A DNA stretch of 64,000 nucleotides from Marinilabiliaceae bacterium (GTDB lineage Bacteria > Bacteroidota > Bacteroidia > Bacteroidales > Marinilabiliaceae): positions 1 through 64,000 of the forward strand of contig JAFGBR010000042.1 of the NCBI GenBank assembly GCA_016933045.1. The letters run 5' to 3'. Below, in pieces: positions 1 to 32,374 of this stretch. The notes below the pieces were generated by a model. That model saw only the letters and a program-made list of their open reading frames with translations, had not been told where the DNA came from and made no database searches. Numbering within the stretch: the stretch's first letter is position 1; each line of letters opens with the position of its first letter. The translations under genes were made by a program, and so were the position numbers.

Positions 1-69
1 TACCCACACTCTGCTAAAAATCAGAAATATGTCAAAGAGCTTATATTATACGGCACTATGGCCGCTTAA
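1..69 (+). CDS. 3' end of an unidentified CDS (partial)
   Basis: An open frame runs from the first base to a TAA at 67-69 and encodes 22 residues ending in KELILYGTMAA. Codon use is like that of the neighbouring genes and the frame ends just before the convergent glycosyltransferase gene, so it may be the tail of a longer gene entering from the left. It is too short to assign to a family. It could also be chance, since a 22-codon open frame at a contig edge is not rare. Confidence 0.35.
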   Translation, partial: YPHSAKNQKYVKELILYGTMAA

Positions 70-80
70 AAATTAACGAA

Positions 81-1025
81 CTATTGAAATATATAAAACC
101 ACTTTAAACCTCTTGCCGATCTATAAGAAAAAAAGAACTTTGAAAAAAACGGAAACCTGCTTTTCTTTTTAATAAATATCTCAGAACTATTTGCAAAAAT
201 AAGATTAAATAATTGTATTGAAAACAAACACGTTTTCAACTCTAAATAACCTGCTATCAAACCATTAACAAACTGCAATTCGTGTCCGTAAAAATTAATA
301 TTTTGCTTAAAAAAAGAATAATGCCGAATCTTTTCATCTATCAACTCAACTTTATCTAAATTTCCCTGAATCGAATAATGAGCACTATCATTGTGTCGTC
401 TATGGTAAATCAGATTTTTGTGAATATACTGTATTCCTCCGTTAACAGTTGCACAAACAGCAATTGTCCAATCATAAATAACATCTTTGTTAAAAATCGG
501 AAGTTTATCTTTTAAATCCTTATGAAAAAAAATAGTACACCCTTGAACTGTATTACCTAAAAGTAACTCTTTTACATTCGCACCAGAAAACCCTTGCCTA
601 GACTTAATATCATTAATATCTGGCAATGAATTTCCATCAATAAATTCTTTTGATGCATGATGTATTAATATAGAACTTTTATCCCACTCCAAAAGCATTT
701 GTTCGATCTTTGATTCAATCCATATATCATCCTGATCACAAATCGCTATAAAATCTCCCTTAGATAACCCAATAGCCTTTAAAAAATTTAAATTATAACC
801 AAGATTAATTTCATTTACAAAAAATTTTATCCGGTTATCAATGAAGCTATTTCTTTTAACAATATTAACAGTATTATCAACAGAATCGTCATCAACAACA
901 ATAATCTCAATATTTCGATATGTTTGTTTAATTAATGAATCAATCTGATCATTTATATACTTTTCTCCATTAAAAGAACACAAAACAATTGAAACCAAAG
1001 GATTATTTATGAATTGAATACTCAT
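81..1025 (-). CDS. Family 2 glycosyltransferase
   Basis: A 314-residue GT-A fold glycosyltransferase, likely cytoplasmic or membrane-associated, adding one sugar from a nucleotide-sugar to a surface polysaccharide intermediate. The N-terminus has the GT2 core: VSIVLCSFNGEKYI at residues 11-24, IIVVDDDSVDNT near 40-51, and the acidic motif CDQDDIW near 96, the expected metal and nucleotide site. The ICDQDDIW form is common in rhamnosyltransferase-like enzymes of O-antigen and capsule loci, but the sugar cannot be read from sequence. No membrane helix is evident. It lies 13 bp downstream of a second GT2 gene and is the last gene of the minus-strand glycan cluster. Confidence 0.88.
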   Translation of the reverse strand: MSIQFINNPLVSIVLCSFNGEKYINDQIDSLIKQTYRNIEIIVVDDDSVDNTVNIVKRNSFIDNRIKFFVNEINLGYNLNFLKAIGLSKGDFIAICDQDDIWIESKIEQMLLEWDKSSILIHHASKEFIDGNSLPDINDIKSRQGFSGANVKELLLGNTVQGCTIFFHKDLKDKLPIFNKDVIYDWTIAVCATVNGGIQYIHKNLIYHRRHNDSAHYSIQGNLDKVELIDEKIRHYSFFKQNINFYGHELQFVNGLIAGYLELKTCLFSIQLFNLIFANSSEIFIKKKSRFPFFSKFFFSYRSARGLKWFYIFQ

Positions 1026-1038
1026 TTTTTTGAACTAA

Positions 1039-2022
1039 TCATTTTAAACGACATATTTTACTCATACTTATTTCACTGTACATGTTTTTAACAATCTGAT
1101 TTATTGATAATAACTTTTGACCTGGGATTACTAAAGATTGTAATCTCTTTTTAGATTTCCGAATCTCTTTATATGACATTACATACAACCAAAAACCATT
1201 ATAGGTACTAAACTGAAACGTCATCCACAAAAAAAGCAATTCAACCAAAACCTGAATATTAAAAAAAAACAAATCTAAATTTGAATAATGTATAGCATGT
1301 AGAATAAAGCGATTACGGCGATAAATCTTACTTACAATTTTTTTTCGTAATAAGTTAGTTGTTGCAGAAACTTCATGGCGACAAACTGATTTATTCTCAT
1401 AATAGCATTTCCAACCCAATCGTTGTGCTCGTATACTAACATCTAAATCTTCTGAATAAAATGGGGAATAAATCTCATCAAAACCTCCAATATATTTTAA
1501 CTTTTTAGCATCAATTAAAGCATTTGCACCTGAAAGATAAAAGGAAGGTATCCAAAAATCATCTGAATTATTACAAATCAAATAATTGTTTGCTGCCTTA
1601 ATCTTCATTAGTTTTTTAGAAGGATATTTAGCAGTATCCTGTATACTATTATCATAATATCCAACAATTTTACCCATTACACCAAAAGTACTAGATGATT
1701 CAAAGTACTTAAACTGTGGAAGAAAATAATTTTCTTCTAACATTAAATCATTATTCATTAAAAAAATAAGATCATTAGAAGCAGCCTTTATTCCGGCATT
1801 ACAAGCTGATGAATAACCTTCATTAACTGATTTTGATATTAAACTAATTTGAGGATAATGCGTTAAAATAAATTCTTTTGATTGATCCAAAGAGCAATCA
1901 TCGACAACTATAACCTCATAATTTGTCCCTAGTCTATCCAATTCTCTGAACAAAGAAGGTAGGTTCTTCTCTAATAACTCCTTTCCATTATAATTAGGAA
2001 CAATTGCTGAAATACTTAACAT
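1039..2022 (-). CDS. Family 2 glycosyltransferase, rhamnosyltransferase-like
   Basis: A 327-residue GT2 enzyme. Visible motifs are AIVPNYNGKELL at residues 6-17, VIVVDDCSLD at 38-47, the metal-binding FLMNNDLML near 90-98, and the acceptor-side block YSEDLDVSIRAQRLGW near 189-204, with the ED pair that usually supplies the catalytic base. A hydrophobic stretch near residues 250-272 could anchor the protein to the inner membrane. This arrangement is typical of rhamnosyl- or fucosyl-type transferases of surface glycan assembly; donor and acceptor remain unknown. It is separated from the upstream acetylation gene by 106 bp that contain a perfect hairpin, so its expression may differ from the genes before it. 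Confidence 0.88.
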   Translation of the reverse strand: MLSISAIVPNYNGKELLEKNLPSLFRELDRLGTNYEVIVVDDCSLDQSKEFILTHYPQISLISKSVNEGYSSACNAGIKAASNDLIFLMNNDLMLEENYFLPQFKYFESSSTFGVMGKIVGYYDNSIQDTAKYPSKKLMKIKAANNYLICNNSDDFWIPSFYLSGANALIDAKKLKYIGGFDEIYSPFYSEDLDVSIRAQRLGWKCYYENKSVCRHEVSATTNLLRKKIVSKIYRRNRFILHAIHYSNLDLFFFNIQVLVELLFLWMTFQFSTYNGFWLYVMSYKEIRKSKKRLQSLVIPGQKLLSINQIVKNMYSEISMSKICRLK

Positions 2023-2090
2023 CTATAAAAAATTGATTTAACAAAACAATGCTATTTCTACATACCGATATAATCGAATTAAATATAATA

Positions 2091-2131
2091 TAACTAATTG
2101 ATTATTAAACATTTTAATAATCAATTAGTTA
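2091..2131 (-). terminator. Perfect 18-bp hairpin at the end of the SGNH gene
   Basis: Positions 2091-2108 and 2114-2131 are perfect inverted repeats (TAACTAATTGATTATTAA and its complement) around a 5-nt loop. The right arm contains the stop codon of the SGNH gene. The stem is AT-rich and the downstream minus strand is T/A-rich rather than a pure T tract. It may be a terminator, an attenuator that lowers expression of the two following glycosyltransferases, or an mRNA 3'-end stabiliser. Confidence 0.55.
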
Positions 2132-3196
2132 ATCTAAAAACCGTTCACAAACCTCATGAATTACTATATCAGGCTTCTCTTTTAAAACTATTTCTTTAAT
2201 AAAATCCTTTTGCCAGATATAAACACATTCTCCAATATTTTCATTAAAAAAAGGCCCCATGGATCCAAAAAATGAATCCCTGAAAACTAAAATTTTATAC
2301 GGCAAACCCTCTTTTAAAAAACGTCTTTCAAAAAGTGGATGATTTGTCACGTTAAACTCAGAATGATTATTGCTACTCTTTATTTCAACAGATTTGGGTT
2401 TCATTTTTGGTTTAAAAGCTACATGATATTCATCAATATCAATTTGCATTGCCATTGAAATATCCTCCCTTTTTGTCCATCGTCTTAACAATTGATAATT
2501 ATTTGCATCTTCAACCTTAATTTGAGGATATTGTTCATTTATCGACTCCATTATATGACAATAAGCATAATATGCGCCTAACCTGTTCCAATGGCTGTTA
2601 GTTAAAAAATACAATTCAGTTGTGTCTTTAAGCGATATTAAGCGATCCCTGATATTTATTACTTTAAAGTTAAGTGCTGTATCTAGTGTTTCAACAAGCT
2701 GATCTAACTTTGTTTTTCTTTGTTTTAGATTAAAAGGAAGATACTCGGGATAAACTGAATGTTTGTTGGGTGCAACAGCAAAATAGTAATCTATTTTATG
2801 CTTTTTCAACCAATCAAGTCTTTCTCTAAAAACTTCAACAAAAGTACATAATTCATCATTTGTAAAATGCTCTAATCCAGTTGATTTATTCAATACATTT
2901 TCATAAGAATTACCAAGAAAGTACCAACCATTTTTACCAACAACAACACTGTGCGGAAATGGTGATTCTTTTAACACAGAAATACAAAACTGACTTTTGG
3001 TTTTAACCAAAAAATCTCTCAATCCAAAATTATGATTAAAATCTCCGCTTATCCGTCCAGCAATTGTATTTTTCTTAAGGGTTGCCAATTCATGCGTAAA
3101 ATCTTTTACCAATAAGTTTTCGAAACCAGTCAGTTGAACAAAAATTGGTATCCAAAGAAGAACTATAAAAGCAATTACCTTAATTTTTTTACTCAT
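2129..3196 (-). CDS. AlgJ/AlgX-like SGNH O-acetyltransferase partner
   Basis: A 355-residue periplasmic protein anchored by one N-terminal helix (residues about 6-22, IAFIVLLWIPIFVQL). It resembles the SGNH-fold proteins AlgJ/AlgX, which pass acetyl groups from a membrane MBOAT protein to a polysaccharide. Support comes from KNGWYFLGNS near residue 88, APNKHSVYPEYLP near 143-155, and the presumed serine block FRDSFFGSMGPFF near 305-317. The usual Asp-x-His of this family (D-T-H-W) reads N-S-H-W here, so the catalytic aspartate position appears to be asparagine. The gene starts 2 bp after the stop of the upstream MBOAT gene, the classic pairing. Activity may be changed or lost; a shifted alignment could also explain the change. 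Confidence 0.82.
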   Translation of the reverse strand: MSKKIKVIAFIVLLWIPIFVQLTGFENLLVKDFTHELATLKKNTIAGRISGDFNHNFGLRDFLVKTKSQFCISVLKESPFPHSVVVGKNGWYFLGNSYENVLNKSTGLEHFTNDELCTFVEVFRERLDWLKKHKIDYYFAVAPNKHSVYPEYLPFNLKQRKTKLDQLVETLDTALNFKVINIRDRLISLKDTTELYFLTNSHWNRLGAYYAYCHIMESINEQYPQIKVEDANNYQLLRRWTKREDISMAMQIDIDEYHVAFKPKMKPKSVEIKSSNNHSEFNVTNHPLFERRFLKEGLPYKILVFRDSFFGSMGPFFNENIGECVYIWQKDFIKEIVLKEKPDIVIHEVCERFLD

Positions 3197-3198
3197 AG

Positions 3199-4608
3199 TT
3201 AAAACTTAAAATATATAAATGGATTATACGAATTGCCAGCAATGTAAAAAACACTAATTATAAATAGTAATAATAACCATGAAACTTTAGCAACCTTATA
3301 TAAGCCCAGATAATTTAATCGGATCGAATAAAATAACCTCACAACCGGTAACGAAAATAATATTCCTAAAATTAAGGCTCCCATTCTTTCATACGAAAGC
3401 AGATAATACAAATAACTATAATCGGTCACTTCATAACTCTGAAATAAGTGCTTAAAATAATTTAATGCATTTGGAAGCTCTTCTAAACGAAAGAAAACAA
3501 ATGTTATTAATACAAAAAAAATTAAATACAGATGCGCAATTGGAGCCCATACCCTTTTTAGAACTTCACCAAACCATAACCTTTCATTCACTATAAGAAG
3601 TCCATGCAATAAGCCCCATATTAAGAAATTCATACTAGCTCCATGCCAAAGCCCTGTAACGACGAATACAATAAACAGATTGCGATAAGTTAAAAAGCCA
3701 TTTTGACGGCTACCTCCAATAGGTATATAAAGATAATCTTTAAACCAGGTTGATAACGAAATGTGCCAACGACGCCAAAACTCTCTAATTGACTTTGAAA
3801 TAAATGGGTAGTTAAAGTTTTCGAGAAAGTCAAAGCCAAACATTTTGCCAAGACCAATTGCCATATCAGAGTACCCCGAAAAATCGAAATATATTTGAAG
3901 CGTATATGCAATAATTCCAACCCAACCTACCACCATATCAATATCTTCGATAGGAAGAATGAATATATTATCAGCAATAAAAGCACAATTATTAGCGATA
4001 ATTATCTTTTTGGCCAAACCAATAACAAACCGCTTTACCCCGTTTAAAAATTGATCTGGATTGAAACTCCTGAACAACAATTGTTTTTGAATATCAACAT
4101 ATCGAACAATAGGACCGGCTACCAATTGCGAAAACATGGTAATATATGTACTGTAATTTACAAAGTTACGTGATGCCTTTGTATTCCCAAACTTAAGATC
4201 AAGAATATACGACAGGTTCTGAAACACATAAAAGCTAATCCCCAATGGCAAAACAATTTCAGATAAGCCATCAAAAATTGAAATATCCGAAGTTGGAATT
4301 TCAACAACCGTTAATAGCATCCCTTTAACAAAATAGAAATATTTAAAAACAAATAATGCTCCCAATGAGGAAAACAGAGCCAATCGAAACCCCAGTTTCT
4401 TGCGACCCTTCTCCATCAGAAGACCAGAGTAATAACAAATTGCAGTAACGGCAAGCATCAACAATACCAATAACCCTTCACCTCGGGTATAAAACACAAT
4501 GCTGGAAAAAAGCAAAAAAACATTCCTGTATTTGTGATTTAAAATGTAATAAATAGTCAATACAACAGGGAGAAATAAAAATAAAAACTCAGGTCTTGTA
4601 AATAGCAT
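3199..4608 (-). CDS. MBOAT O-acyltransferase, AlgI family
   Basis: A 469-residue polytopic inner-membrane protein that is expected to move acetyl groups across the membrane for polysaccharide O-acetylation. It starts with the family signature LLFTRPEFLFLFLPVVL, has PLGISFYVFQNLSYILD near 120-137, the conserved FWRRWHISLSTWFKDYLY block near 275-292 and the presumed catalytic histidine in GLWHGASMNFLIWG near 320. Length and order match AlgI/DltB-type proteins. It is directly followed by an SGNH partner on the same strand. This is the second MBOAT of the cluster (the other is at 7345-8793). The acetylated sugar is not predictable. Confidence 0.92.
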   Translation of the reverse strand: MLFTRPEFLFLFLPVVLTIYYILNHKYRNVFLLFSSIVFYTRGEGLLVLLMLAVTAICYYSGLLMEKGRKKLGFRLALFSSLGALFVFKYFYFVKGMLLTVVEIPTSDISIFDGLSEIVLPLGISFYVFQNLSYILDLKFGNTKASRNFVNYSTYITMFSQLVAGPIVRYVDIQKQLLFRSFNPDQFLNGVKRFVIGLAKKIIIANNCAFIADNIFILPIEDIDMVVGWVGIIAYTLQIYFDFSGYSDMAIGLGKMFGFDFLENFNYPFISKSIREFWRRWHISLSTWFKDYLYIPIGGSRQNGFLTYRNLFIVFVVTGLWHGASMNFLIWGLLHGLLIVNERLWFGEVLKRVWAPIAHLYLIFFVLITFVFFRLEELPNALNYFKHLFQSYEVTDYSYLYYLLSYERMGALILGILFSLPVVRLFYSIRLNYLGLYKVAKVSWLLLLFIISVFYIAGNSYNPFIYFKF

Positions 4609-4674
4609 AATATTTTATTAAATCATCCTACTAATAAAAAAATATCACAGCATTAATTATCAATTGCAGTAAAA

Positions 4675-5499
4675 CTAAATTTCAAACCCCATATCTTTAA
4701 CAAACTGTAACTTTTGATCGTCGAATATACTCAAATCCATCTGTTTGTATCGATTGTTCGATCCAGTATTTTTCGGTATAGTGTAAAGTCTTTCAACATT
4801 TTCGGGAGATATGTTAATGCCGGAAAACACCAACATTTTATCAATCTCATACTTTGGGTTTTGGCAAAAACTCTCATGGTTAATTAGTAAAAATCTGTTG
4901 TTATACTTTTTTGACTTTTCCATAATATCTTTTGTCGAATTAATCCAATAATCTAACTGTTTATTTGCTAATTCATCATCATTTTCATTTCCATGCAAAA
5001 CAATATTGTACTTCCAACCCCAATTATTCAATTGTTGTTTATTATTAGAAAATGCCATATCTAATCCATGCCTTAACACGTGTATATATTTTAACTCATC
5101 AAAATAATCAAGAAACTCACACATATAGATTTGAGTATTTGGTTCTTTCCATCCCCAATTAGTCTTCAATTTGCCATTGCAAAACAATCTTTTTGTTATT
5201 TGAAAATAAAAACTGGCTTTTGAATGAATAGTTGGGTTCGTTTTTGCTGCAAAAAATAACACGTAAAAATCTTTAATCGATAATCTTTTGAATAACATGT
5301 ATTTTTCGAATACATCCATTCGTTTTTTTCTTTGATTAACAGAAGCCTCTTTAAACCAATCAGGATTTTTAAATAATCGTGTGAAAATCAAATTGTCATT
5401 AGATTCATTAAGATCATCACCTAAATAAAAACCAGCCTGAATTAAAACTTCAGCAACCGCTCGTGTGCCACTACCACCTAATGCTCCAATTGCTATCAT
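4675..5499 (-). CDS. Sulfotransferase-like P-loop protein
   Basis: A 274-residue protein. The open frame extends upstream to a TTG at 5517, but ATG at 5499 places the N-terminus directly at MIAIGALGGSGTRAVAEVL, whose GGSGTR loop resembles the 5'-phosphosulfate-binding loop of PAPS-dependent sulfotransferases. A second block, YIHVLRHGLDMAFSNN near residues 138-153, matches the 3'-phosphate-binding region. The remainder is divergent. Proteins of this shape are found in glycan loci and are annotated as sulfotransferase family proteins. Its position between an MBOAT/SGNH pair and a second sulfotransferase suggests modification of the same glycan. The fold call is fairly safe, but PAPS use is inferred. 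Confidence 0.7.
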   Translation of the reverse strand: MIAIGALGGSGTRAVAEVLIQAGFYLGDDLNESNDNLIFTRLFKNPDWFKEASVNQRKKRMDVFEKYMLFKRLSIKDFYVLFFAAKTNPTIHSKASFYFQITKRLFCNGKLKTNWGWKEPNTQIYMCEFLDYFDELKYIHVLRHGLDMAFSNNKQQLNNWGWKYNIVLHGNENDDELANKQLDYWINSTKDIMEKSKKYNNRFLLINHESFCQNPKYEIDKMLVFSGINISPENVERLYTIPKNTGSNNRYKQMDLSIFDDQKLQFVKDMGFEI

Positions 5500-5533
5500 A
5501 CTCTTAATCAATATCAATTATCAAATCGCAATA

Positions 5534-6235
5534 CTACACATCATAATTTAATAATTCGAAATCCTTTTTGTAAATATTTCTAATCATAGACCTGCATTCA
5601 GGGTTAAGCAAATCATTGTAACATGGTTTATTGGTACTATGAATGTGTTCAAGATGTGTGTTTATACCTTTATCCTTAAAAAAACGATCACAATCTGAAT
5701 TTAAATTTTCAAATCTAATAAGAGCATCTACGCAAATATTCTCATTTCGTGTCACAAACACATATTGCGGCAATAAATGCCTATCATTCAAATAGTTCTC
5801 TGGAAGATATTTTAAAATAAACTGAGATAAATCCATACAAAAGTCACCATTGTTATTTTTCAGCCAAAAAAATTCAGATACTATACGATCGTATGGATTA
5901 CGTATCACCGCAAAACTTATATATTTTTTAATATTTAATTTTTTTTCAATTTCATTAATTGTATAATGTTGTAATGGAATTAGTTTTATTTTATCATTTT
6001 TTATAATATAATTAAAAAATGCAATTATTTTACTTCGCAAATTGCCACCCAAAAAATCACGAAACATTTTTCGATTTTCAAAAGTAACAGGTATATATCC
6101 ATACATTATTTTTCTAGAGATCATATTGCACCCTTCATTATCAACACCAAATACTCCCAGTGCTTTTTCAATACTACCTCCTCCTGTTTTGGGGATATGA
6201 ATAAATAATAATTTGTATTTTTTACTTATTGGCAT
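5534..6235 (-). CDS. Sulfotransferase family 2 protein
   Basis: A 233-residue cytoplasmic enzyme of the carbohydrate sulfotransferase type. The 5'-phosphosulfate loop is visible as FIHIPKTGGGSIEKAL at residues 11-26 and the 3'-phosphate block as FAVIRNPYDRIVSEF near 108-122. These are the two hallmarks of PAPS-dependent sulfotransferases that act on sugars. The start codon overlaps the end of the upstream SGNH gene by 10 bp, indicating translational coupling. With the neighbouring sulfotransferase-like gene it points to a sulfated surface polysaccharide. No PAPS synthesis genes are in the window, so supply must come from elsewhere. Confidence 0.82.
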   Translation of the reverse strand: MPISKKYKLLFIHIPKTGGGSIEKALGVFGVDNEGCNMISRKIMYGYIPVTFENRKMFRDFLGGNLRSKIIAFFNYIIKNDKIKLIPLQHYTINEIEKKLNIKKYISFAVIRNPYDRIVSEFFWLKNNNGDFCMDLSQFILKYLPENYLNDRHLLPQYVFVTRNENICVDALIRFENLNSDCDRFFKDKGINTHLEHIHSTNKPCYNDLLNPECRSMIRNIYKKDFELLNYDV

Positions 6236-7332
6236 TCGTTATTGGCTTTATCATTATTGTATCCAATTTCAGTGAGCTTTTCAATTGTCTTATTTATGGC
6301 AATTGTAATACCTTTTTCGTTCCAATGGGTATCTGTTCTGTAATATAACGTATCACTACATTTAACAAACGAATGATACAAATCGACATAAGGTATTTGA
6401 AGGATATCTAACCCTTTATACAATCTGGGCAAAAAATTATTATACTCTTCGTTCTCAAAAACAAGACTATGATAAATAGAAATCTTACTGGGAATAGGCA
6501 TAAAAACCAATTCCATGTTATATTCCTCTTTCAGTTTCGTCTGAATTCTTTTTAGGTTGTCGCACAACGTTTGAATTTCTTTATCGGTATGTTGGTAGAA
6601 AAAGCTTGATTCTGAGTTATTAACACTTTCTTTTACAAACAACCATGAAGGATTTAAACAATATACAGGAGTTTTATAATTAATATATTCAAACGTTCGG
6701 AATTTGAATGTGGCAATTTTTTCATACAAATCAGCTATAAACATCCCACGTTGCAATACTCTGTTATATTTTCTTTCAATATCATTTTTCGAAAGTAGTA
6801 AACAAAAAGAATCATCTTCATTTGTTTTTTTTTCAGGTTCGGGATTTAAAGGCATTCTCTGAATAAGATAATGCATCAAACCCCTTTCTCCCATCTCATA
6901 TATAAGCACTTTCTTTCTTCCCTTTTTATACGCTGCATTCATAAATGGCTGCATTGGATTATAACCATTGTAATAATATACTTTTTCACCCGTCTCATCC
7001 TGAAGCCTTTCAGGAAAAGTGGTCAGCCAGTGAAAAAAAAAATAACTATCGCCTACACATACAATATCAGCCGAATCAAACGAGGGATGCTTTGGACTAT
7101 TTGTATACCAAGGTAATTCATACTTATTTTTTTGGTTAATATTGCTAAATGGCGGAAGCGGTTCTCTAAAATCAGTAATGTAATTTTGTCGATATAAATC
7201 ACCCCCATCATGACAAAATGGAGCATTCTGAATAAACTGTAAACCATATTTAACCCTAATAAAAATGAAAATGCACAAACAAAACACTCCCAATATATAA
7301 ATGCTATATTTTAATATCTTATCCTTTCTCAT
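6226..7332 (-). CDS. AlgX/AlgJ-like SGNH acetyltransferase partner
   Basis: A 368-residue protein with one N-terminal membrane helix (ILKYSIYILGVFCLCIFIFI, residues about 6-25) and a periplasmic SGNH-type domain. The serine block is VCVGDSYFFFHW near residues 88-99 and the Asp-His pair is in YRTDTHWNEKGI near 334-345, so all three expected catalytic residues are present, in contrast to the paralogue at 2129-3196. An upstream TTG at 7344 is in frame, but ATG at 7332 is preferred. It lies 12 bp after the MBOAT gene 7345-8793 and overlaps the next gene by 10 bp. Likely role: transfer of acetyl groups to a surface glycan. Confidence 0.8.
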   Translation of the reverse strand: MRKDKILKYSIYILGVFCLCIFIFIRVKYGLQFIQNAPFCHDGGDLYRQNYITDFREPLPPFSNINQKNKYELPWYTNSPKHPSFDSADIVCVGDSYFFFHWLTTFPERLQDETGEKVYYYNGYNPMQPFMNAAYKKGRKKVLIYEMGERGLMHYLIQRMPLNPEPEKKTNEDDSFCLLLSKNDIERKYNRVLQRGMFIADLYEKIATFKFRTFEYINYKTPVYCLNPSWLFVKESVNNSESSFFYQHTDKEIQTLCDNLKRIQTKLKEEYNMELVFMPIPSKISIYHSLVFENEEYNNFLPRLYKGLDILQIPYVDLYHSFVKCSDTLYYRTDTHWNEKGITIAINKTIEKLTEIGYNNDKANNECQ

Positions 7333-7344
7333 TTTTAATCGCAA

Positions 7345-8793
7345 TTAGAATTGAAAATATATAAAATCAAGAGCATCCCACTTTCCAAAAAACACAATAG
7401 ACGAAACTCCAATTAATAATAACACCCACATCAAAAATTTCGGGATTTTTTTAAACCAATTTTCAAGGCCAACATACTCTGCAACATACTCTACATAATA
7501 AAGAACTAGTATAGCCAATACTGAAATCCAAAAATCAACAGGAAACTTAAAGATATTAATTATAGTTGTGGGATTTGAAATTGAAATTGAAAATGAATCT
7601 CTTATTATTACAAGTGCATCAGAAAAAGTCTTTGTCATAAAAAATGGCGAAGTTGAAATAAACACCAAAGAAACAACAGAAATGTTCAAAACTGAATCGA
7701 CTATATTATATTTTAATAGTCCGATTTTATTTTTGATTTTTTTAATAGTATCACGTAATAAAACGTAGAGCACAATAAATAGACCATGCACACCTCCAAA
7801 TATTATAAAATTCCAGGTAGCTCCATGCCACAACCCATTAATTAAAAACACAATAATAATGCTTAAAATCATTCGAAACTGACCATTCCTGCGCCCACCA
7901 AGAAAAACATACAAATAATCTCTAAACCAAGTAGTTAACGAGATATGCCAACGCGACCAAAACTCTTGTGTTGTTTGTGCAAAAAATGGTTGACGAAAAT
8001 TCCTCATTAACTTAACGCCCATTATTCCAGCCGCACCAATTGCAATATCTGAATAACCAGAAAAATCACAATAAATCTGTATGTAAAAGAAAAAATTTGC
8101 AATCCAAATAATAACACCTTTATACACTCCCGGGTTGTAAAATATCTCAGAGGTATACTCTGCAATCCGATCAGCAATCACCATTTTTTTAACAAATCCC
8201 CAAAGCATTAAAACCAAACCATTTCGAACTCTATAATAATTAAACTCATACTTAGTTCTTAATTGAGGAATCAAATTTTTAGCTCGTTCAATAGGGCCTG
8301 CCACTAACTGAGGAAAATAGGTTACATAAAGTGCAAAACGCAGCAATTTCTTTTCAGCGTCAATTCTCTTTTTGTAAACATCGATTGTATAGCCTAATGT
8401 TTGAAATGTATAAAATGATATACCTACCGGTAATTTAAAGTCATGGTTTGAAATAGAGTATGTTCCGCCTAACAGAGTTACAACATCTCGAATCGAATCG
8501 TTAAAAAAGTTGAAATACTTAAAAAAAAACAATAGTCCTAAATTAATAATCAAACTAACATATAACAATCGTTTTCGAATGATTTTACTTTTTGAAGCAG
8601 CAATTTTTATTGAACAAAAATAATCGGTAAGCGTAGAGCCAATTATAAGAACTACAAAAATAGGATCCCAACAAATGTAGAAGTAATAACTACTTATTAA
8701 TAAAAAAATCCACCTGAACTTAAATGGAATAAAAAAATATCCCATCAACACTATTGGGAAAAAAACCAAAAATTCAAGTGAATTAAACAACAT
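7345..8793 (-). CDS. MBOAT O-acyltransferase, AlgI family (first of two)
   Basis: A 482-residue polytopic membrane protein closely matching AlgI: LFNSLEFLVFFPIVLMGYF at the start, LPVGISFYTFQTLGYTIDVY near 121-140, FWSRWHISLTTWFRDYLYVF near 277-296, and GLWHGATWNFIIFGG with the presumed catalytic histidine near 322-336. It is the first gene of the minus-strand glycan cluster and is divergent from the gene at 8988. A TAnnTTTG-type promoter element lies about 42 bp upstream. With the SGNH protein encoded immediately after it, it forms a complete acetylation pair, making the second MBOAT/SGNH pair of the cluster either a second acetylation site or a diverged copy. Confidence 0.93.
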   Translation of the reverse strand: MLFNSLEFLVFFPIVLMGYFFIPFKFRWIFLLISSYYFYICWDPIFVVLIIGSTLTDYFCSIKIAASKSKIIRKRLLYVSLIINLGLLFFFKYFNFFNDSIRDVVTLLGGTYSISNHDFKLPVGISFYTFQTLGYTIDVYKKRIDAEKKLLRFALYVTYFPQLVAGPIERAKNLIPQLRTKYEFNYYRVRNGLVLMLWGFVKKMVIADRIAEYTSEIFYNPGVYKGVIIWIANFFFYIQIYCDFSGYSDIAIGAAGIMGVKLMRNFRQPFFAQTTQEFWSRWHISLTTWFRDYLYVFLGGRRNGQFRMILSIIIVFLINGLWHGATWNFIIFGGVHGLFIVLYVLLRDTIKKIKNKIGLLKYNIVDSVLNISVVSLVFISTSPFFMTKTFSDALVIIRDSFSISISNPTTIINIFKFPVDFWISVLAILVLYYVEYVAEYVGLENWFKKIPKFLMWVLLLIGVSSIVFFGKWDALDFIYFQF

Positions 8794-8834
8794 TTTTCAC
8801 CGTTATAGAATATATACTGCTTTAATATGGATTG

Positions 8835-8842
8835 CAAAAATA
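8835..8842 (-). promoter_or_regulatory. -7 promoter element of the glycan cluster
   Basis: On the minus strand the sequence TATTTTTG matches the Bacteroidota -7 consensus TAnnTTTG, 42 bp before the MBOAT start codon. No TTG is found at the proper -33 spacing, so the call rests on the -7 box and position only. Confidence 0.5.
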
Positions 8843-8922
8843 TAAAAAGTATTGAAAGTAGTAAAACGTCAAACTAAAATAACTGATTAAAAAAACACCC
8901 CTTCAATTAATTAAAATAATAT

Positions 8923-8930
8923 TACTTTTG
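8923..8930 (+). promoter_or_regulatory. -7 promoter element of the DUF5686 gene
   Basis: TACTTTTG fits TAnnTTTG exactly and lies 57 bp before the ATG at 8988. A clear -33 TTG is not present. Together with the minus-strand box at 8835-8842 it makes a divergent promoter region of about 190 bp. Confidence 0.5.
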
Positions 8931-8987
8931 CATTACATTAATTATACAAATTAATAACACACAAAATCATATCTTGTTAAATAGTTC

Positions 8988-11492
8988 ATGATTAATAAGT
9001 ATTGTAAATACATTTTTAATATAATATGCAGTTTTTGCATACTTATTCCATCAACCATAACAGCCCAACAAAAAAACATTTCTGGTGTAGTTATTGATGC
9101 CACTAATAACGACCCCATTCCAATGGCAAATATTTACATTAAAAATACCACCATAGGAACTACATCAAATATAAAAGGACAATTTTCGTTAATAAACATA
9201 CCCTTAAACGATTCATTAATAATATCATCACTTGGCTTTAAACCACGCAGTATACATCCAAAAAACTGTAACGAAAACCTAAAAATAACACTCATACCGG
9301 TATCGTTCAACGTAAATGAGATTAAAGTAATACCCAAAGATGACAGAATAAAAAAACTTCTAAACGACATTGATAAACACCGTAATTTCAACAACCCCGA
9401 CAAAATTGAACGTTATTCGTACGAAAAATATACTAAATGGGATTATACACTGAATAATGTGGATAACTCACTTATGAAATCGAAAACATTTAAGAACAAA
9501 CAATCACTTTTTAAAAAACTTTCAAACGGGAAGCATTACTTACCAGTTTATTTTTCGGAACAGATAACAAAACATGAATTCCAGCAAAACCCTACGGGAG
9601 AAAAAACTGTTATTGAAGCCGAAAACACATCAGGGCTTGGAGTAATGGATCATCTCGAAATTAGCGGATATACAGCCTCACTTGAATCTACTTTAAACTT
9701 TTACAACAATTATGTACGAATATACAACCGCAATTATGTTAGCCCACTATCGTCAAACGGCTGGTTTTATTACCGCTACTATATCGAAGATAGTGTAAAA
9801 ACAGACAATAATTGGAAATACAAAGTACTATACTACCCCCGTCGCAAAGAAGAAAATGTATTTAAAGGCTATTTTTATATAAACGACAAGCACTTCAACT
9901 TAACATACATTGATGCAACACTGAGCGATAAAAATCAGCTTAATTTCTTAAAATCAATGCACCTAACAAGCGAGTATCAACTAATTAACGACTCAGTTTC
10001 ATTTTTAAAGACAAATTGTGTAGAAGCCACATTCGATTATTTACCAACAAATTATAATACCCAAAAAGACAGGTTTGAACTCGGATATAAAAGAAACTGC
10101 TCAATTTCGAATGTAAAAGTCGATGAGTTACCTATGCTCAAGCTATCGAACAATGGATTATCGTACGAATATGAAAAAAGCAGCAATGCTGCCCTAAAGG
10201 ATTCGAATTACTGGGAAACAAAACGGCATATAAAATTATCATCAAACGACCTGTTAAAAACTGCTATAATAGACTCGGTTAACAACATAAACCGTATAAA
10301 AGTGATGAATAACACTTTAGAAATGGGACTAACAAGTTTCTATGACATTGGCAAATTTGAGTGGGGGCCTTATCCCGACTTTGTAACTTTTAATAAAATA
10401 GAAGGATTACGACTATATGCAGGCGGACGAACCAGTAGTGAAATAAGTAACAACTGGATGCTTTATGGTGGTTTAGGGTATGGACTTAAAAGCCATGAAA
10501 TATCGGGACAATTTGGTGCCGGATATAAATTTAATGGTAATAGGCGAAAAATTGTGTTAGCATCATTCGACGATCGTTATATAAAAATTGGTGAAAATAT
10601 GCATATTCTTCACCTGAAAGAAAATATGCTTAGAACATCAGAAACGAATCTTATTTCATCGTTTTTTAACCGTGATGAATTTGATGAACTATATCGTCAG
10701 CAATCTGCTCAACTAACATACTCCCACGAATGGAAGACGGGTTTTTCCTCATCATTAAAAAGTTGTTGGAAAAAACAATACTCTCCCAAATTTTATCCAT
10801 TTATTAACCAAAGCGATTCTATAACAGATATTCAAACAATTGAAGCAACCTGCGAACTACGTTTTTCGTGGAAAGAAAAATTTATTGATAAGGGCTACAG
10901 AAGATTATATCTTTCATCGAACTATCCTATTATAAATATGAGTTTTAGTGCAGGGCAAGCATATCTGGGAAACGAACACTTACCCTATGCTAAAGTTCAT
11001 GCAACTTGCAAGCACTCTTTTTTTCTTGGTCAAACACAGTTCAAAACAGCTTTCGAAGCCGGACATATTTTTGGAAAACTTCCTTATACTCTATTAAACA
11101 TTCCCCGAGGAAATGAAACGTATGGGCTTTACCTATACAACTTTAACATGATAAACTATTTAGAGTTTGTTCATGATACCTATTTTCATTCATTTTTTGA
11201 ATATCACCTGAATGGTTTTTTCTTTAATCGCATTCCTTTACTTAAAAAATTAGGTCTGAGAGAGGTTCTTTCGGCCAAAGGCATGATTGGGCAATTGAGT
11301 GAAAAACAAAAAAACTCAATGAATTTACCAGATAAAATGGGCTCCTCAACTGAACCTTATTCCGAAGTTGGTGCCGGAATAGAAAACTTACTGCGTTTTT
11401 TCAGGCTTGAGGTATTATGGAGATCAACTCCCTCTGTGTATGATAACATACCTAAATTTGGATTTAGGGCAAAATTTGAAATAAAACTATAA
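8988..11492 (+). CDS. DUF5686-type outer membrane protein with carboxypeptidase-like regulatory domain
   Basis: An 834-residue envelope protein. A signal peptide ends near residue 27 (PSTITAQQ). Residues 30-105 form a carboxypeptidase regulatory-like beta-sandwich (ISGVVIDATNNDPIPMANIY, then GQFSLINIP), the domain found at the front of many Bacteroidota outer-membrane proteins. The rest is rich in alternating aromatic beta strands and ends in a strand with a terminal leucine (FRAKFEIKL), as expected for an outer-membrane barrel; its layout fits the DUF5686 family. It has no TonB plug and is too short for a SusC transporter. Its function is unknown. It is transcribed alone and meets the next gene convergently at a hairpin. 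Confidence 0.75.
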   Translation: MINKYCKYIFNIICSFCILIPSTITAQQKNISGVVIDATNNDPIPMANIYIKNTTIGTTSNIKGQFSLINIPLNDSLIISSLGFKPRSIHPKNCNENLKITLIPVSFNVNEIKVIPKDDRIKKLLNDIDKHRNFNNPDKIERYSYEKYTKWDYTLNNVDNSLMKSKTFKNKQSLFKKLSNGKHYLPVYFSEQITKHEFQQNPTGEKTVIEAENTSGLGVMDHLEISGYTASLESTLNFYNNYVRIYNRNYVSPLSSNGWFYYRYYIEDSVKTDNNWKYKVLYYPRRKEENVFKGYFYINDKHFNLTYIDATLSDKNQLNFLKSMHLTSEYQLINDSVSFLKTNCVEATFDYLPTNYNTQKDRFELGYKRNCSISNVKVDELPMLKLSNNGLSYEYEKSSNAALKDSNYWETKRHIKLSSNDLLKTAIIDSVNNINRIKVMNNTLEMGLTSFYDIGKFEWGPYPDFVTFNKIEGLRLYAGGRTSSEISNNWMLYGGLGYGLKSHEISGQFGAGYKFNGNRRKIVLASFDDRYIKIGENMHILHLKENMLRTSETNLISSFFNRDEFDELYRQQSAQLTYSHEWKTGFSSSLKSCWKKQYSPKFYPFINQSDSITDIQTIEATCELRFSWKEKFIDKGYRRLYLSSNYPIINMSFSAGQAYLGNEHLPYAKVHATCKHSFFLGQTQFKTAFEAGHIFGKLPYTLLNIPRGNETYGLYLYNFNMINYLEFVHDTYFHSFFEYHLNGFFFNRIPLLKKLGLREVLSAKGMIGQLSEKQKNSMNLPDKMGSSTEPYSEVGAGIENLLRFFRLEVLWRSTPSVYDNIPKFGFRAKFEIKL

Positions 11493-15930: not shown

Positions 15931-17640
15931 ATGTACCAACAACCCATATTCACCGAAGCCAGCGACTGTAAAGATTGCTATAAATGCATAAGAGAATGCC
16001 CGGTAAAGGCCATTGAAGTACGAAACGATCGCGCATTTGTGGTTGATACACTGTGTATTCACTGTGGCCATTGCGTATCGATATGTCCATCGGGAGCAAA
16101 AAAAGTACGAGATGGCATTTCAAGAGCCAAATTTATACTCAAAAATCAAAAAAAAGTATATGTATCGTTAGCTCCATCTTACATATCGGAATATGGACTA
16201 TATAGCAATGAATTAATTACCTCATTACTAAAACTAGGATTTACAGGAGTATCAGAAACTGCCCATGGAGCACAAGAAGTATCAAAACATGTTAGTATTT
16301 TATTAAAAGAAAAAAAAACAGGAGTTCTAATATCATCGGCATGTCCGGTAGTTGTTGAAATGATTCGAAAATATTATCCACAACAAACAACAGCTATTAC
16401 TCCAATTATGTCACCAATGCTTACTCATGCCAAAATGCTAAAACATTGGTATGGTAATGATATTAGCATAGTTTTTATAGGCCCATGCATAGCAAAAAAA
16501 GCCGAAGCCGACAGTAATCCGGGTTTAATTGATGTTGCTCTTACATTTAAAGAATTAGATAACTGGTTTAAAGAAGAAAATATTCATCCGTTAGAAACAA
16601 ACAACAACATTCCTCAAAAATTTATTCCTTACGAAGCCCAAAACGGCGTAATTTATCCCATTGATGGAGGAATGGCTGAAACTATTAAACAAGAGGGTAA
16701 ACACAGCGATTGTACATTTATTAGTTTTACCGGAGTTAAAATGATTAAAAAGGTACTTGCCAACTTAGATGAGTTTAACCAATCAAAACCAACATTTCTC
16801 GAACTATTAGCATGTGAAACCGGTTGCATTAATGGCCCCGGCATGACTGGCAACAACTGCATGATAGAAAAACACCATTTGTTAAAAGCAAGTTATAAAA
16901 ACAGAATGGCTAACGTTATTAAAAAAGAGTATAAAAACAACCTCAATATAAAACGCGATTTCTACAACATAGAATCCATCAAAGAAAACGACTTCACTCC
17001 AAACACATTAAAAGAAGCTCTTTTGAGTATTGGAAAAAAAAGCATCTCGGACGAACTAAATTGTAGTGGATGTGGTTACGATACTTGTCGAGAATTTGCA
17101 AAAGCACTTTTAAACAAACGAGCCGAAACAAGTATGTGTGTATCATACATGCGTATGGTAGCTCACAATAAAGCAGCAATATTATTACAAAAAATACCAT
17201 CCGGTGTTATTATTGTCGATGATCAGTGCAAAGTAGTTGAAATGAATTCGAATTTTGCACATCTTCTTGGCCCTGAAGCTGAGTTATGTTTTGATGCATC
17301 GCCGGGAATGAATGGGGTTGATTTGGGAAAAATAGGTTCATTCTCAAACCTTTTCAAAACAGCTTTAATAACTGGCAAGGAATATTACGAAACACCAATT
17401 GTTGAAAATGGCATCAACCTACAGTTATCAATTTTCAATATTCAAAAGCACAAACTTGTAACCGGTATAATTCAAGGAGTGCAACAACCTCGCTTTCAAA
17501 AAGAAATTGTTGAGAAACGTACTCGCGAAGTGATTAAAAAAAACATGGAAACAGTTCAAAAAATTGCATTTCTGCTAGGTGAAAATGCTTCATTTACCGA
17601 CTCATTGCTCAACTCTATACTCGAATCAGAAACCGAGTAA
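15931..17640 (+). CDS. Sensory-type [FeFe] hydrogenase with Fe-S and PAS domains (group C-like)
   Basis: A 569-residue cytoplasmic protein. Two [4Fe-4S] motifs (CKDCYKCIRECP and CIHCGHCVSICP, residues 10-55) precede an H-cluster domain (about 75-310). Its three active-site motifs are degenerate: SSACP (Ala137-Cys138) instead of TSCCP, GPCIAKK (Cys186) instead of MPCxxKK, and ACETGC (Cys295, Cys299). The cluster-binding cysteines remain, but the proton-relay cysteine is alanine and the L2 methionine is glycine, as in putative H2-sensor hydrogenases. A third Fe-S domain (CSGCGYDTC, 378-386) and a PAS domain (about 415-520) follow. It is encoded with a phosphatase gene, so it probably reports H2 or redox state to that enzyme. 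Confidence 0.88.
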   Translation: MYQQPIFTEASDCKDCYKCIRECPVKAIEVRNDRAFVVDTLCIHCGHCVSICPSGAKKVRDGISRAKFILKNQKKVYVSLAPSYISEYGLYSNELITSLLKLGFTGVSETAHGAQEVSKHVSILLKEKKTGVLISSACPVVVEMIRKYYPQQTTAITPIMSPMLTHAKMLKHWYGNDISIVFIGPCIAKKAEADSNPGLIDVALTFKELDNWFKEENIHPLETNNNIPQKFIPYEAQNGVIYPIDGGMAETIKQEGKHSDCTFISFTGVKMIKKVLANLDEFNQSKPTFLELLACETGCINGPGMTGNNCMIEKHHLLKASYKNRMANVIKKEYKNNLNIKRDFYNIESIKENDFTPNTLKEALLSIGKKSISDELNCSGCGYDTCREFAKALLNKRAETSMCVSYMRMVAHNKAAILLQKIPSGVIIVDDQCKVVEMNSNFAHLLGPEAELCFDASPGMNGVDLGKIGSFSNLFKTALITGKEYYETPIVENGINLQLSIFNIQKHKLVTGIIQGVQQPRFQKEIVEKRTREVIKKNMETVQKIAFLLGENASFTDSLLNSILESETE

Positions 17641-17641
17641 A

Positions 17642-18829
17642 ATGCAAATAAAAAATTTTTACATCGAAATTGAGTTGTCGCAAGAAAGTAAAGCCAACCA
17701 AAATGTTTGTGGCGATGCTTGTGAATCGCGCAAAATAAAAGAGGAAGACCGCATTATAACTGTCTTATCCGATGGGTTAGGATCTGGAATAAAAGCAAAT
17801 ATACTGGCTACAATGACAACCAGCATGGCATTACAATTTACCGCAAAAAACAATCCTGTTGAACGTACTGCCGAGTTTATTATGAATACGCTTCCCATTG
17901 ACTCTCAACGTAAAATAAGTTACTCTACCTTCACAATTGTAAATATTGATTGCTTTGGTGAAGCACACATTGTAGAATTCGATAACCCACCAGTTTTAAT
18001 TTTCAGAAATGGCTCATTTTTAAACCTTAATAAGAAAAAAGAGTTTATTGCCCGTCCTGATAACATTAAAGCTATGGTTAGCTATTATAATATTAAATTG
18101 CAAAAAGAAGACCGAATAATTTTAGTTTCCGATGGTATTACACAATCGGGAATGGGTAAAATAAAAACTCCTTTTGGATGGAGTAATGACGGATTACAAA
18201 ATTTTATTCAACAAGCAATAAACAATAAACCTGATATATCGGCTCAACAATTATCGCATTTAATTACCGAAAGAGCAAAAGCAAATGATTCAGGACTATT
18301 TAAAGATGATGCCACCTGCCAGGTTATTTATTGTCGCACTCCACGAAAACTGGTATTAGCATCAGGCCCACCCTATTATGATAACTACGACCGGCATTTG
18401 GCCGAAAGAGTCGAATCGTTCGATGGCAAAAAAATAATATGCGGCGGAACCACTTCAAAAATTATTTCGAGAGAATTAAACCGCCCCATCGAGGTTATTA
18501 TTAATACTGAGCCATCTGACTTGCCTCCGATATCGAAAATGGACGGAATTGATTTTATTACCGAAGGCATACTCACACTTGGAAAAGTTTCAGGACTACT
18601 GGAAAAACAAAAACCTGCTACTATTACAGGAAATGGACCAGCAGAAAAAATAATACGTTTTTTACTATCGTGCGATTCCATACTGATTTTAGCAGGCACA
18701 CAGGTCAACAACGCCCATCAAGATCCTAATTTGCCGGTTGAACTAGAAATAAGACGTAACGTTTTAAAAAAAATTAGAGCATTACTCGAAGAAAAATATT
18801 TCAAAACCGTTGAAATCGAATATTTATAA
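17642..18829 (+). CDS. SpoIIE-type (PP2C-like) serine phosphatase
   Basis: A 395-residue protein. The frame extends back to 17579 inside the hydrogenase gene, but ATG 17642 lies one base after the hydrogenase stop and gives a normal N-terminus. Residues 1-230 form a SpoIIE/PP2C phosphatase domain with the metal-binding aspartates in LSDGLGSGIKAN (near 43-54) and LVSDGITQSGMG (near 161-172), and KDDATC near 222. The C-terminal 160 residues (from LVLASGPPYYDNYD) are a separate, conserved-looking alpha/beta region that I cannot name. Such phosphatases are regularly encoded beside group C [FeFe] hydrogenases, which suggests that H2 sensing is converted to protein dephosphorylation. The target is unknown. 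Confidence 0.85.
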   Translation: MQIKNFYIEIELSQESKANQNVCGDACESRKIKEEDRIITVLSDGLGSGIKANILATMTTSMALQFTAKNNPVERTAEFIMNTLPIDSQRKISYSTFTIVNIDCFGEAHIVEFDNPPVLIFRNGSFLNLNKKKEFIARPDNIKAMVSYYNIKLQKEDRIILVSDGITQSGMGKIKTPFGWSNDGLQNFIQQAINNKPDISAQQLSHLITERAKANDSGLFKDDATCQVIYCRTPRKLVLASGPPYYDNYDRHLAERVESFDGKKIICGGTTSKIISRELNRPIEVIINTEPSDLPPISKMDGIDFITEGILTLGKVSGLLEKQKPATITGNGPAEKIIRFLLSCDSILILAGTQVNNAHQDPNLPVELEIRRNVLKKIRALLEEKYFKTVEIEYL

Positions 18830-18862
18830 ACAAATCATAAAACACTCACAAACAAATATATA

Positions 18863-20320
18863 ATGACATATTTCAATAACGCCCTCATTACCAAACGCGA
18901 ATTATTAGTTCGATTAATAACCCTTTTAAACAACAACGAACTATTTGAAAAAATTGACCGCATACCAGTTGAAATGCGTCCACGAACCAATACCCCAATA
19001 CGTTGCTGTGTTCATAAAGACCGGGCAGTTATTAAATACAAAATTATGGCATTGCTCGGTTTTAATATATCAGACGAGGTAGACGAATTAACGCCATTGC
19101 ACGAATATGCTATTGAAGCATTAAACGGACAAACTCAAAATGGCAATTTTTTAACGGTTGTTGATGAAGCATGCAGCTCTTGCGTTCAGGTAAATTACAC
19201 AGTAAGTAATTTATGCAGAGGTTGCGAAGGACGAGCCTGTCAAGTCAATTGTCCCAAAGACGCCATACAGGTATTTAACGGAAAGGCTCATATCGACCAT
19301 CAAAAATGTATTAATTGTGGTTTGTGCCAAAAAGTTTGTCCCTTTCATGCAATCGCATACTTACCCGTACCTTGCGAAGAAGCCTGCCCGGTAAATGCCA
19401 TTAAAAAGAATGAATTTGGTATTGAAGTAATCGATTTTGATAAATGCATTCATTGTGGTAAGTGCATGAAAGCCTGTCCGTTTGGTGCAGTGGCTGAAAA
19501 ATCGCAGTTATTGAATCTATTTTACCAAATGAAAACCAACAAAAAGAAAACAGTTGCCATAGTTGCACCTGCTATATTAAGTCAGTTCAAAATACCATCA
19601 TCTCATATATTAAAAGCTATTAAAAATATTGGTTTTAACGAAATAATTGAAGTAGCTGAAGGAGCACAAGAAACAACAATAAATGAAACAAAGGAATTAA
19701 AAGAAAGACTAAATCAAGGTGTTTCATTTATGACAACATCATGTTGTCCATCATATATTGAATTGGCAAACAAGCATCTACCCGAAATAAAACCATACAT
19801 AAGTCATACCCCTTCTCCCATGGCCTATACAGCAATCAAAGCAAAAAAACAATTTCCTGATCACAAAGTTGTATTCATTGGGCCATGCCTTGCCAAACGA
19901 CGTGAGGCTTACTTTAACGAAAATGTCGATTATGTGATTACAACCGAAGAATTAGGCGCATTATGGGCTGCACTCAATATCGACATAAACTCCATTAACT
20001 GCAATGATTCGATCAGCTCATACATAACCGCCGAAAGTCGTGGTTATGCTGCATCTGGTGGTGTAACTAACGCCATTAAATCGATATTGACACCTGACGA
20101 AAACATTAAATCAATGCTTATCGACGGTATTGACAAAAAATCGATTAAACTACTGAAATCATTTACAAATAAAGCACCTGATGCATCATTTGTTGAAGTA
20201 ATGGCTTGCAATGGGGGTTGCATTAACGGACCGGTAAATATTGCCCAATTACCGATTAGTCAGGCAACATTAAAAAAAGCCATCGATGAAATAGAACGAA
20301 AAAAAACCTATACCCAATGA
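18863..20320 (+). CDS. Monomeric [FeFe] hydrogenase, group B-like
   Basis: A 485-residue ferredoxin-type hydrogenase expected to evolve H2 in the cytoplasm. After an N-terminal helical region (1-95) come cysteine clusters CRGCEGRACQVNCP (near 121-134), CINCGLCQKVCP and CIHCGKCMKACP, indicating several [4Fe-4S] clusters. The H-cluster motifs are TSCCP (Cys294, Cys295), GPCLAKR (Cys342) and MACNGGC (Cys449, Cys453), so both the proton-relay cysteine and the cluster ligands are present. The GPC form of L2 and the short GPV after L3 differ from group A enzymes and resemble the group B type common in gut and sediment Bacteroidota. It is the last gene of the hydrogen operon. Maturation genes are not nearby. 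Confidence 0.9.
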   Translation: MTYFNNALITKRELLVRLITLLNNNELFEKIDRIPVEMRPRTNTPIRCCVHKDRAVIKYKIMALLGFNISDEVDELTPLHEYAIEALNGQTQNGNFLTVVDEACSSCVQVNYTVSNLCRGCEGRACQVNCPKDAIQVFNGKAHIDHQKCINCGLCQKVCPFHAIAYLPVPCEEACPVNAIKKNEFGIEVIDFDKCIHCGKCMKACPFGAVAEKSQLLNLFYQMKTNKKKTVAIVAPAILSQFKIPSSHILKAIKNIGFNEIIEVAEGAQETTINETKELKERLNQGVSFMTTSCCPSYIELANKHLPEIKPYISHTPSPMAYTAIKAKKQFPDHKVVFIGPCLAKRREAYFNENVDYVITTEELGALWAALNIDINSINCNDSISSYITAESRGYAASGGVTNAIKSILTPDENIKSMLIDGIDKKSIKLLKSFTNKAPDASFVEVMACNGGCINGPVNIAQLPISQATLKKAIDEIERKKTYTQ

Positions 20321-27407: not shown

Positions 27408-27448
27408 CCTTTAATCGTAGGCTATATATTGTTAATACGATATAAATT

Positions 27449-27493: not shown

Positions 27494-27542
27494 ATTTCAA
27501 TATTGAGGACATCTGAAAAAAATAAAACCAATGATGAATGGA

Positions 27543-31970: not shown

Positions 31971-31980
31971 ATTCCCAAGA

Positions 31981-32369: not shown

Positions 32370-32374
32370 TTAAA

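Follow-up and report, generated by a model that had tools for sequence, protein, structure and literature searches.

An operon-like unit joining two sulfotransferases to two MBOAT/SGNH acyltransferase pairs in a Marinilabiliaceae genome: a probable decoration module for a surface glycan

What does a bacterium build with two sulfotransferases packed between two O-acylation systems? The question is raised by a unit of eight genes at the left end of a 64,000-nucleotide stretch of DNA (the window) from a Marinilabiliaceae bacterium (assembly GCA_016933045.1, contig JAFGBR010000042.1, positions 1 to 64,000), which is the start of contig C69 in an assembly of 3.91 Mb in 82 contigs. We propose, with a probability of roughly 0.6, that the unit is a decoration module that sulfates an exported surface glycan in the cytoplasm, using 3′-phosphoadenosine-5′-phosphosulfate (PAPS), and O-acylates it in the periplasm. 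The proposal builds on the gene content, the sequence motifs, the predicted fold of one sulfotransferase, the PAPS genes, and a link, seen in relatives, of sulfotransferases to adenosine 5′-phosphosulfate (APS) kinase and to Wzm/Wzt export loci.

Read leftwards on the minus strand from position 8793, the unit encodes MBOAT2, SGNH2, ST2, ST3, MBOAT1, SGNH1, GT2b and GT2a, and all eight frames are open (Table 1). A preliminary description of this DNA had listed the first six genes, in this order, between 2129 and 8793; both order and coordinates are borne out, with every Pfam match of the unit above its cut-off. The two GT2 genes that it named next are present as well, at 81-2022, and thus outside that interval. 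It had also pointed to tight spacing and a 10-bp overlap, and the packing is indeed operon-like: the gaps in transcription order are 0, -10, 16, 66, 2, 106 and 13 bp, with the SGNH2/ST2 overlap at 6226-6235, and the right-hand neighbour at 8988 runs in the opposite direction. Six successive genes on one strand with such Pfam matches are no chance effect. A consensus scan returned five terminator-like sites versus 3.7 expected from shuffled sequences, with none in the 66- and 106-bp gaps; promoter-like sites (61 versus 57.3 expected) showed no excess over chance, so the scan is uninformative on internal promoters.

Table 1. Features of the unit and of the contig edge (window coordinates)
Feature	Coordinates	Strand	Evidence
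MBOAT2, membrane O-acyltransferase, 482 aa	7345..8793	-	PF03062 85.3 bits; WHGA; C-terminus FIYFQF
SGNH2, SGNH/AlgX-like acyltransferase partner, 372 aa	6226..7344	-	PF16822 48.5 bits; GDSY in N-terminal third, DTHW close to C-terminus
ST2, Sulfotransfer_2 family, 233 aa	5534..6235	-	PF03567 59.1 bits (cut-off 22)
ST3, Sulfotransfer_3 family, 280 aa	4675..5517	-	PF13469 35.4 bits (cut-off 27); Sulfotransfer_1 31.0
MBOAT1, membrane O-acyltransferase, 469 aa	3199..4608	-	PF03062 100 bits; WHGA; C-terminus FIYFKF
SGNH1, AlgX/DHHW-like SGNH protein, 355 aa	2129..3196	-	PF16822 54.4 bits, PF14286 26.7 bits; NSHW; RDSF close to C-terminus
GT2b, glycosyltransferase, 327 aa	1039..2022	-	PF00535 85.3 bits
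GT2a, glycosyltransferase, 314 aa, last gene ahead of contig edge	81..1025	-	PF00535 93.7 bits
End of multi-copy repeat, probably an insertion sequence, at contig break	1..86	.	98-100% matches at seven other contig ends

The two sulfotransferases differ in how far their models can be read. ST3 belongs to a family spread across many phyla, for which a single scan of named genomes gave 173 relatives; the residues invariant in 54 aligned sequences are G17, T18, R19, K124, E125, P126, N127 and R149, while S157 is kept in at least 90%. Its structural model (predicted local distance difference test, pLDDT, 96.1) has a PAPS-sulfotransferase fold, and Foldseek gave 54 rows with E values of 0.001 or lower; the top structural rows are the tyrosylprotein sulfotransferases TPST1 and TPST2 with 3′-phosphoadenosine-5′-phosphate (PAP) (3ap3_A: Z 18.0, 3.7 Å over 218 residues), followed by other PAPS sulfotransferases. 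In ST2, K16, S21, R112 and S120 are invariant among six sequences; among 11, one of them cut short, R112, S120 and Y231 are invariant and S21 is kept in at least 90%. We take G17, T18, R19, R149 and S157 of ST3, and K16, S21, R112 and S120 of ST2, to be of the 5′-phosphosulfate and 3′-phosphate binding type. The low-confidence model of ST2 gave heparan sulfate 6-O- and 2-O-sulfotransferases as top rows (Z 10.0 and 9.5; against 5t05_B, Z 10.0 and 4.2 Å over 181 residues) and no Foldseek row at E 0.001, the best being 0.0029. Such rows tell fold, not substrate.

It is the gene context that makes a glycan the likely target of sulfation. Among the best 80 of the 173 ST3 relatives, on which all our ST3 locus counts are based, GT2-like genes were labelled in at least 32 loci, two or more sulfotransferases in at least 39, an ST2-like gene in at least eight and a separate APS kinase in at least two. 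These label counts are lower bounds, with single-seed profiles, cuts at contig ends and pruning of overlapping frames all costing labels: the ST3 gene itself went unlabelled in 8 of the 80 loci, the CysC of locus L236 was missed, and a fused CysN-APS kinase in L108 was labelled CysN. Two loci of identical sequence (L116 and L032) were counted once. In the source genome, sulfotransferase genes number at least four, spread over three contigs and in every case adjoined by glycan-type genes.

Both MBOATs combine a PF03062 match and a WHGA His motif with an FXYXXF hexapeptide at the very C-terminus, and each is adjoined by an SGNH partner with an ALGX match. FXYXXF is an acyl-shuttle motif whose Tyr, in PatA, accepts acetyl and passes it to the SGNH partner, and the sections of PMC12148441 drawn on here conclude that similar systems share the PatA/PatB mechanism. 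In SGNH2 the elements of a Ser-His-Asp triad are present in the sequence (GDS and DTHW). SGNH1 has its Ser motif placed behind the His motif and reads NSHW where most relatives show D-x-HW; the motif was found in 28 of 30 homologous frames, with Asp in 19 of the 28, Asn in 4 and Gly in 5. The SGNH2 pair thus looks canonical, and the SGNH1 pair looks like one with a tolerated or weakened triad. The acyl group is most likely acetyl.

To sulfate anything, the cell would need PAPS. The preliminary description had named an absence of PAPS synthesis genes as a refutation of its sulfated-glycan reading; the genome contains cysC (APS kinase), cysD and cysN side by side, and cysQ above cut-off, distributed over contigs C72 and C67, away from the unit, which is itself cut by a contig edge. 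That the cell is able to sulfate is well supported by this gene content. The CysH of the genome scores over the APS-reductase model TIGR02055 (269.6 versus a cut-off of 235.3) and under the PAPS-reductase model TIGR02057 (183.8 versus 254.2), and it carries CC and CxxC, a signature of reductases that act on APS itself. Since CysH is thus APS-reducing in appearance, CysC, and hence PAPS, is probably dispensable for cysteine synthesis.

Sulfotransferases and APS kinase go together across the family. Of 71 genomes from the family of the source genome, searched for sulfotransferases of PF03567 and PF13469, eight have PF03567, 22 have PF13469 (21 above the curated cut-off) and 28 have a strong APS kinase match. 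APS kinase was found in 23/23 genomes with a sulfotransferase of either family versus 5/48 without (Fisher p 3.7e-14); three weak APS kinase matches (G295, G349 and G361) were left out, and with them the counts are 23/23 versus 8/48. The same holds at the genus level (8/8 versus 2/13, p 2.2e-4), and none of 20000 within-genus shuffles matched the observed link. CysH exceeds the TIGR02055 cut-off in 54 of the 71 genomes (28/28 with APS kinase and 26/43 without), and among these 54 the link persists (23/23 versus 5/31). In 14 of the 23 genomes a sulfotransferase and an APS kinase are no more than 25 kb apart on one contig; the distance is within 12 kb in 13 and within 2 kb in seven, and in the source genome the two are not linked in this way. 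APS kinase is common elsewhere, occurring in 11 of 14 control genomes, so the link is a statement on this family alone.

A second Sulfotransfer_3 class of 370-387 aa is encoded in four family loci (L217, L218, L222 and L223), about 1 kb or less from an APS kinase of another subtype with 47-49% identity to the CysC of the source genome. This class is perhaps of the sterol type of BT_0416 from Bacteroides thetaiotaomicron, and some sulfotransferase/APS kinase systems in the family could be of that type.

The link takes a concrete form in the loci themselves. From 22 genomes of the family we fetched 37 sulfotransferase loci; in five of them (L207, L208, L213, L228 and L232) CysC, Wzm, Wzt and a sulfotransferase follow one another in order, with extra genes between them in some, and a sixth (L236) has UpxY, Wzm, Wzt and two sulfotransferases, with a PF01583 match between UpxY and Wzm. 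Pfam confirmed ABC2_membrane, ABC_tran with Wzt_C, and Sulfotransfer_2 in L207, and the same three plus APS kinase and MBOAT in L213. Past the sulfotransferase of L213, the MBOAT ends in FIYFQF and is flanked by two SGNH-like proteins, recognised by eye from GSS and His motifs and giving no Pfam match. The CysC of the source genome is 79-85% identical to the CysC of five such loci (one a fragment) and at most 59% identical to ten other APS kinases compared.

The source genome has the parts of such a locus, on contigs other than that of the unit. Near the start of C72 (locus L050, 1-14000) stand a UpxY antiterminator (154.7 bits, cut-off 100), an SLC13-type permease, CysC and then a Wzm-like ABC-2 export permease. 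In Bacteroides, capsule loci are known to encode UpxY proteins. The same stretch of C72 also encodes a nucleotidyltransferase and a 486-aa protein without a Pfam match, 35% identical to a similarly placed protein of L236. Contig C56 begins inside a Wzt-like ATPase and continues with a DegT-like enzyme (by eye), a GT2, a Sulfotransfer_3 protein, an MBOAT and an SGNH-like protein, the last again called by eye from GSS and His motifs and without a Pfam match; a further sulfotransferase, of the Sulfotransfer_1 family, occurs together with a GT2 where C38 ends. A join of C72 to C56 is suggested only by the gene order of relatives. When the 300-base ends of C69, C72, C56 (both), C38 and C33 were compared, the longest common string was 15 bases.

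How might the unit work? We infer the substrate and the order of steps as follows. GT2a and GT2b would add sugars in the cytoplasm, where the growing chain would receive sulfate from PAPS through ST2 and ST3, each acting on its own position or sugar. PAPS would be made from sulfate through CysDN and then by CysC, which in this family would serve sulfation rather than cysteine synthesis, and CysQ would clear the spent PAP. The glycan would then be exported, probably through an ABC (Wzm/Wzt) system, for which the components on C72 and C56 are candidates. Each MBOAT may draw on the cytoplasm for an acyl group (acetyl in all likelihood), load it on the Tyr of its FIYFxF tail and hand it to its SGNH partner, which would esterify the glycan in the periplasm. 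For the family at large we tentatively suggest, at slightly below even odds, that PAPS synthesis is a dedicated sulfation module: a CysC subtype would head UpxY/Wzm/Wzt loci, cysteine would be made via the APS-type CysH, and an ABC-exported surface glycan would be both sulfated and O-acylated.

The preliminary description went further and pictured a glycan that is both sulfated and O-acetylated at two sites. The enzyme families and the capacity to make PAPS agree with this picture; the single glycan, the two sites and acetyl as the acyl group do not follow from them. That sulfate and acyl marks sit on one shared glycan is unproven, as are two acylation sites, a guess from the number of genes.

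A number of observations weigh against the decoration module. The cys and exporter genes, being on other contigs, are tied to the unit via the genome only. Neither the 80 ST3 loci nor the 37 family sulfotransferase loci contain the eight-gene order, and an MBOAT label was assigned in at least two of the 80 and at least two of the 37; two sulfotransferases and two complete MBOAT/SGNH pairs in one operon were seen nowhere else among the loci examined, the nearest parallels being L213 and the genome's own C56. Five family genomes (G029, G297, G300, G329 and G330) have APS kinase without PF03567 or PF13469. The nearest fold to ST3 is that of a protein-tyrosine rather than a glycan sulfotransferase, the confidence of the ST2 model is low (pLDDT 64.4), K16 of ST2 is replaced by Arg in two sequences of the larger alignment (L035 and L045), and a sequence search of the Protein Data Bank with ST2 and ST3 gave no match at E 0.1. 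SGNH1 lacks a full Ser-His-Asp triad, Asn replacing the catalytic Asp. Finally, CysH also scores over two broader models (NF002537, 295.5 versus 154; TIGR00434, 199.2 versus 165.1), one of which is named phosphoadenylyl-sulfate reductase.

The absence of the eight-gene order from the other loci examined is in line with an explanation that we consider unlikely and that nevertheless survives better than its competitors: the MBOAT/SGNH pairs and the sulfotransferases would have separate targets, a polymer for acylation and a different glycan, produced elsewhere, for sulfation, and horizontal transfer would have brought the unit together. The best named relatives of ST3, among the best 80 of 173, are from outside the Bacteroidales (loci titled Flavobacteriales 68%, Saprospirales 57%, Porticoccaceae 53% and Electrothrix 51% versus 44% for the best locus titled Bacteroidales), G+C is 28-31% over positions 1-10000, though similarly low values recur in a few further stretches of the window, and C56 and C38 offer other glycan-type stretches with sulfotransferases. 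Against separate targets stand the tight packing, above all the 10-bp overlap between SGNH2 and ST2, and the fact that C56 and L213 likewise place a sulfotransferase near MBOAT and SGNH-like genes.

The fold of ST3 bears on a second explanation, which we regard as improbable: that ST2, ST3 or both sulfate something other than a glycan, either protein tyrosine, given that among solved structures TPST1 and TPST2 come nearest to ST3 in fold (Z about 18), or else a lipid or sterol, on the model of BT_0416. For the latter, Bt_0411 to Bt_0415 are proposed as PAPS genes adjoining the cholesterol sulfotransferase BT_0416 in the part of PMC9417993 available, and three of the loci with a 370-373-aa sulfotransferase next to APS kinase (L218, L222 and L223) have no Wzm, Wzt or GT2 by profile in the fetched stretch. 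However, structural rows indicate fold rather than substrate, the unit's other genes encode two GT2s and two acyltransferase pairs, and the ST3-family loci among the best 80 of 173 are rich in GT2-like genes and in further sulfotransferases. In addition, once the five genomes with long (355-430 aa) sulfotransferases only are removed, APS kinase is still present in 18/18, within 25 kb in 11 of them. It is similarly doubtful that the locus is decaying or partly inactive, cut by a mobile element and with an SGNH1 that has lost its catalytic Asp: the edge repeat does end directly behind the GT2a stop codon, and the position of the lost Asp is Asp in 19 of the 28 relatives with the motif, but all eight frames are open, the same position is Asn in four and Gly in five of those relatives, and the repeat may sit just past the natural end of the operon.

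The contig edge itself also limits the view of the unit: because C69 ends in a multi-copy repeat, the unit is cut on the left, and the sequence past GT2a is not visible. A repeat end of 85-93 bases is found at eight contig ends (the starts of C69, C29, C59 and C3 and the ends of C40, C74, C6 and C2), at which the multi-copy element breaks the assembly, and bases 1-69 of C69 translate as the final 22 codons of a plus-strand frame.

Elsewhere in the window, translations judged by eye show iron-sulfur and hydrogenase-like proteins with a phosphatase-like partner at 15931-20320, behind a sigma-54-type regulator at 13626; this stretch looks like a hydrogenase cluster. A probable glycan-use region spans 24048-39125, where CBM6/CBM35 and ricin-lectin proteins with Por_Secre_tail adjoin two hybrid two-component regulators (27543-31970 and 35319-39125) that carry Reg_prop and Y_Y_Y domains.

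Bacteroidota are known chiefly as degraders of sulfated glycans. The preliminary description had called sulfated surface glycans little described in this phylum, which agrees with our search of the open-access literature: among the matches listed, titles and the beginnings of abstracts yielded no description of sulfated glycan biosynthesis in Bacteroidota, nothing for Bacteroides that pairs a sulfotransferase with either UpxY or adenylylsulfate kinase, and nothing on sulfated S-layer or glycoprotein glycans in Bacteroidota. According to the portion of PMC9723792 consulted, a metagenome study using a PF13469-seeded BLAST screen scored all its Bacteroidetes genomes as sulfotransferase-negative; by our profile search, 22 of the 71 genomes from a single Bacteroidales family contain PF13469. 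If our proposal is true, Bacteroidota with sulfated, acylated surface glycans and a reserved CysC would be new producers in the sulfated-glycan cycle, and CysC by Wzm/Wzt and a sulfotransferase, together with an APS-type CysH, would serve as a genomic marker for them.

Among known systems, that of Vibrio sp. KMM 8419 comes close. Its sulfated capsular polysaccharide has been solved, with an O-acylated rhamnose in the structure, which makes it a precedent for a bacterial capsule that carries both marks; the sections of PMC11641403 at hand also describe PAPS genes and sulfotransferases in one cluster as a hallmark of sulfated polysaccharide biosynthesis. The two systems share sulfotransferases in a glycan locus, the genes cysC, cysN and cysD and, probably, ABC export. 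In Vibrio, however, second copies of cysC, cysN and cysD lie inside the cluster, whereas the present genome has its cys genes on contigs other than that of the unit; in addition, the present unit is from Bacteroidota and has MBOAT/SGNH pairs flanking the sulfotransferases, and the word MBOAT is absent from PMC11641403. The synechan (xss) cluster of Synechocystis 6803 likewise encodes two sulfotransferases of distinct subfamilies within one polysaccharide cluster, but it is cyanobacterial and its sulfate was measured, according to an extract of PMC8205485. The same extract reports that PF00685, PF03567 and PF13469 were used to search cyanobacteria; the source genome here holds all three families.

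On the acyltransferase side, the unit resembles PatA/PatB, an MBOAT with a His motif and a C-terminal FXYXXF adjoining an SGNH protein in the sections of PMC12148441 cited above, and differs from it in having two pairs with SGNH proteins of different types, one of them (SGNH1) with Asn for Asp, that flank two sulfotransferases. Within the unit's own phylum, BT_0411-BT_0416 of B. thetaiotaomicron is similar in placing a Bacteroidota sulfotransferase by putative PAPS genes and a sulfate importer, but its product is a sterol sulfate, and glycosyltransferases and acyltransferases are not mentioned in the available part of PMC9417993.

AlgI/AlgJ/AlgX and WssH/WssI are further MBOAT-SGNH systems. 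Set beside all of these, each of the two chemistries is known already; an operon with both enzyme sets, and a CysC linked to sulfation in Bacteroidales, are what is new here.

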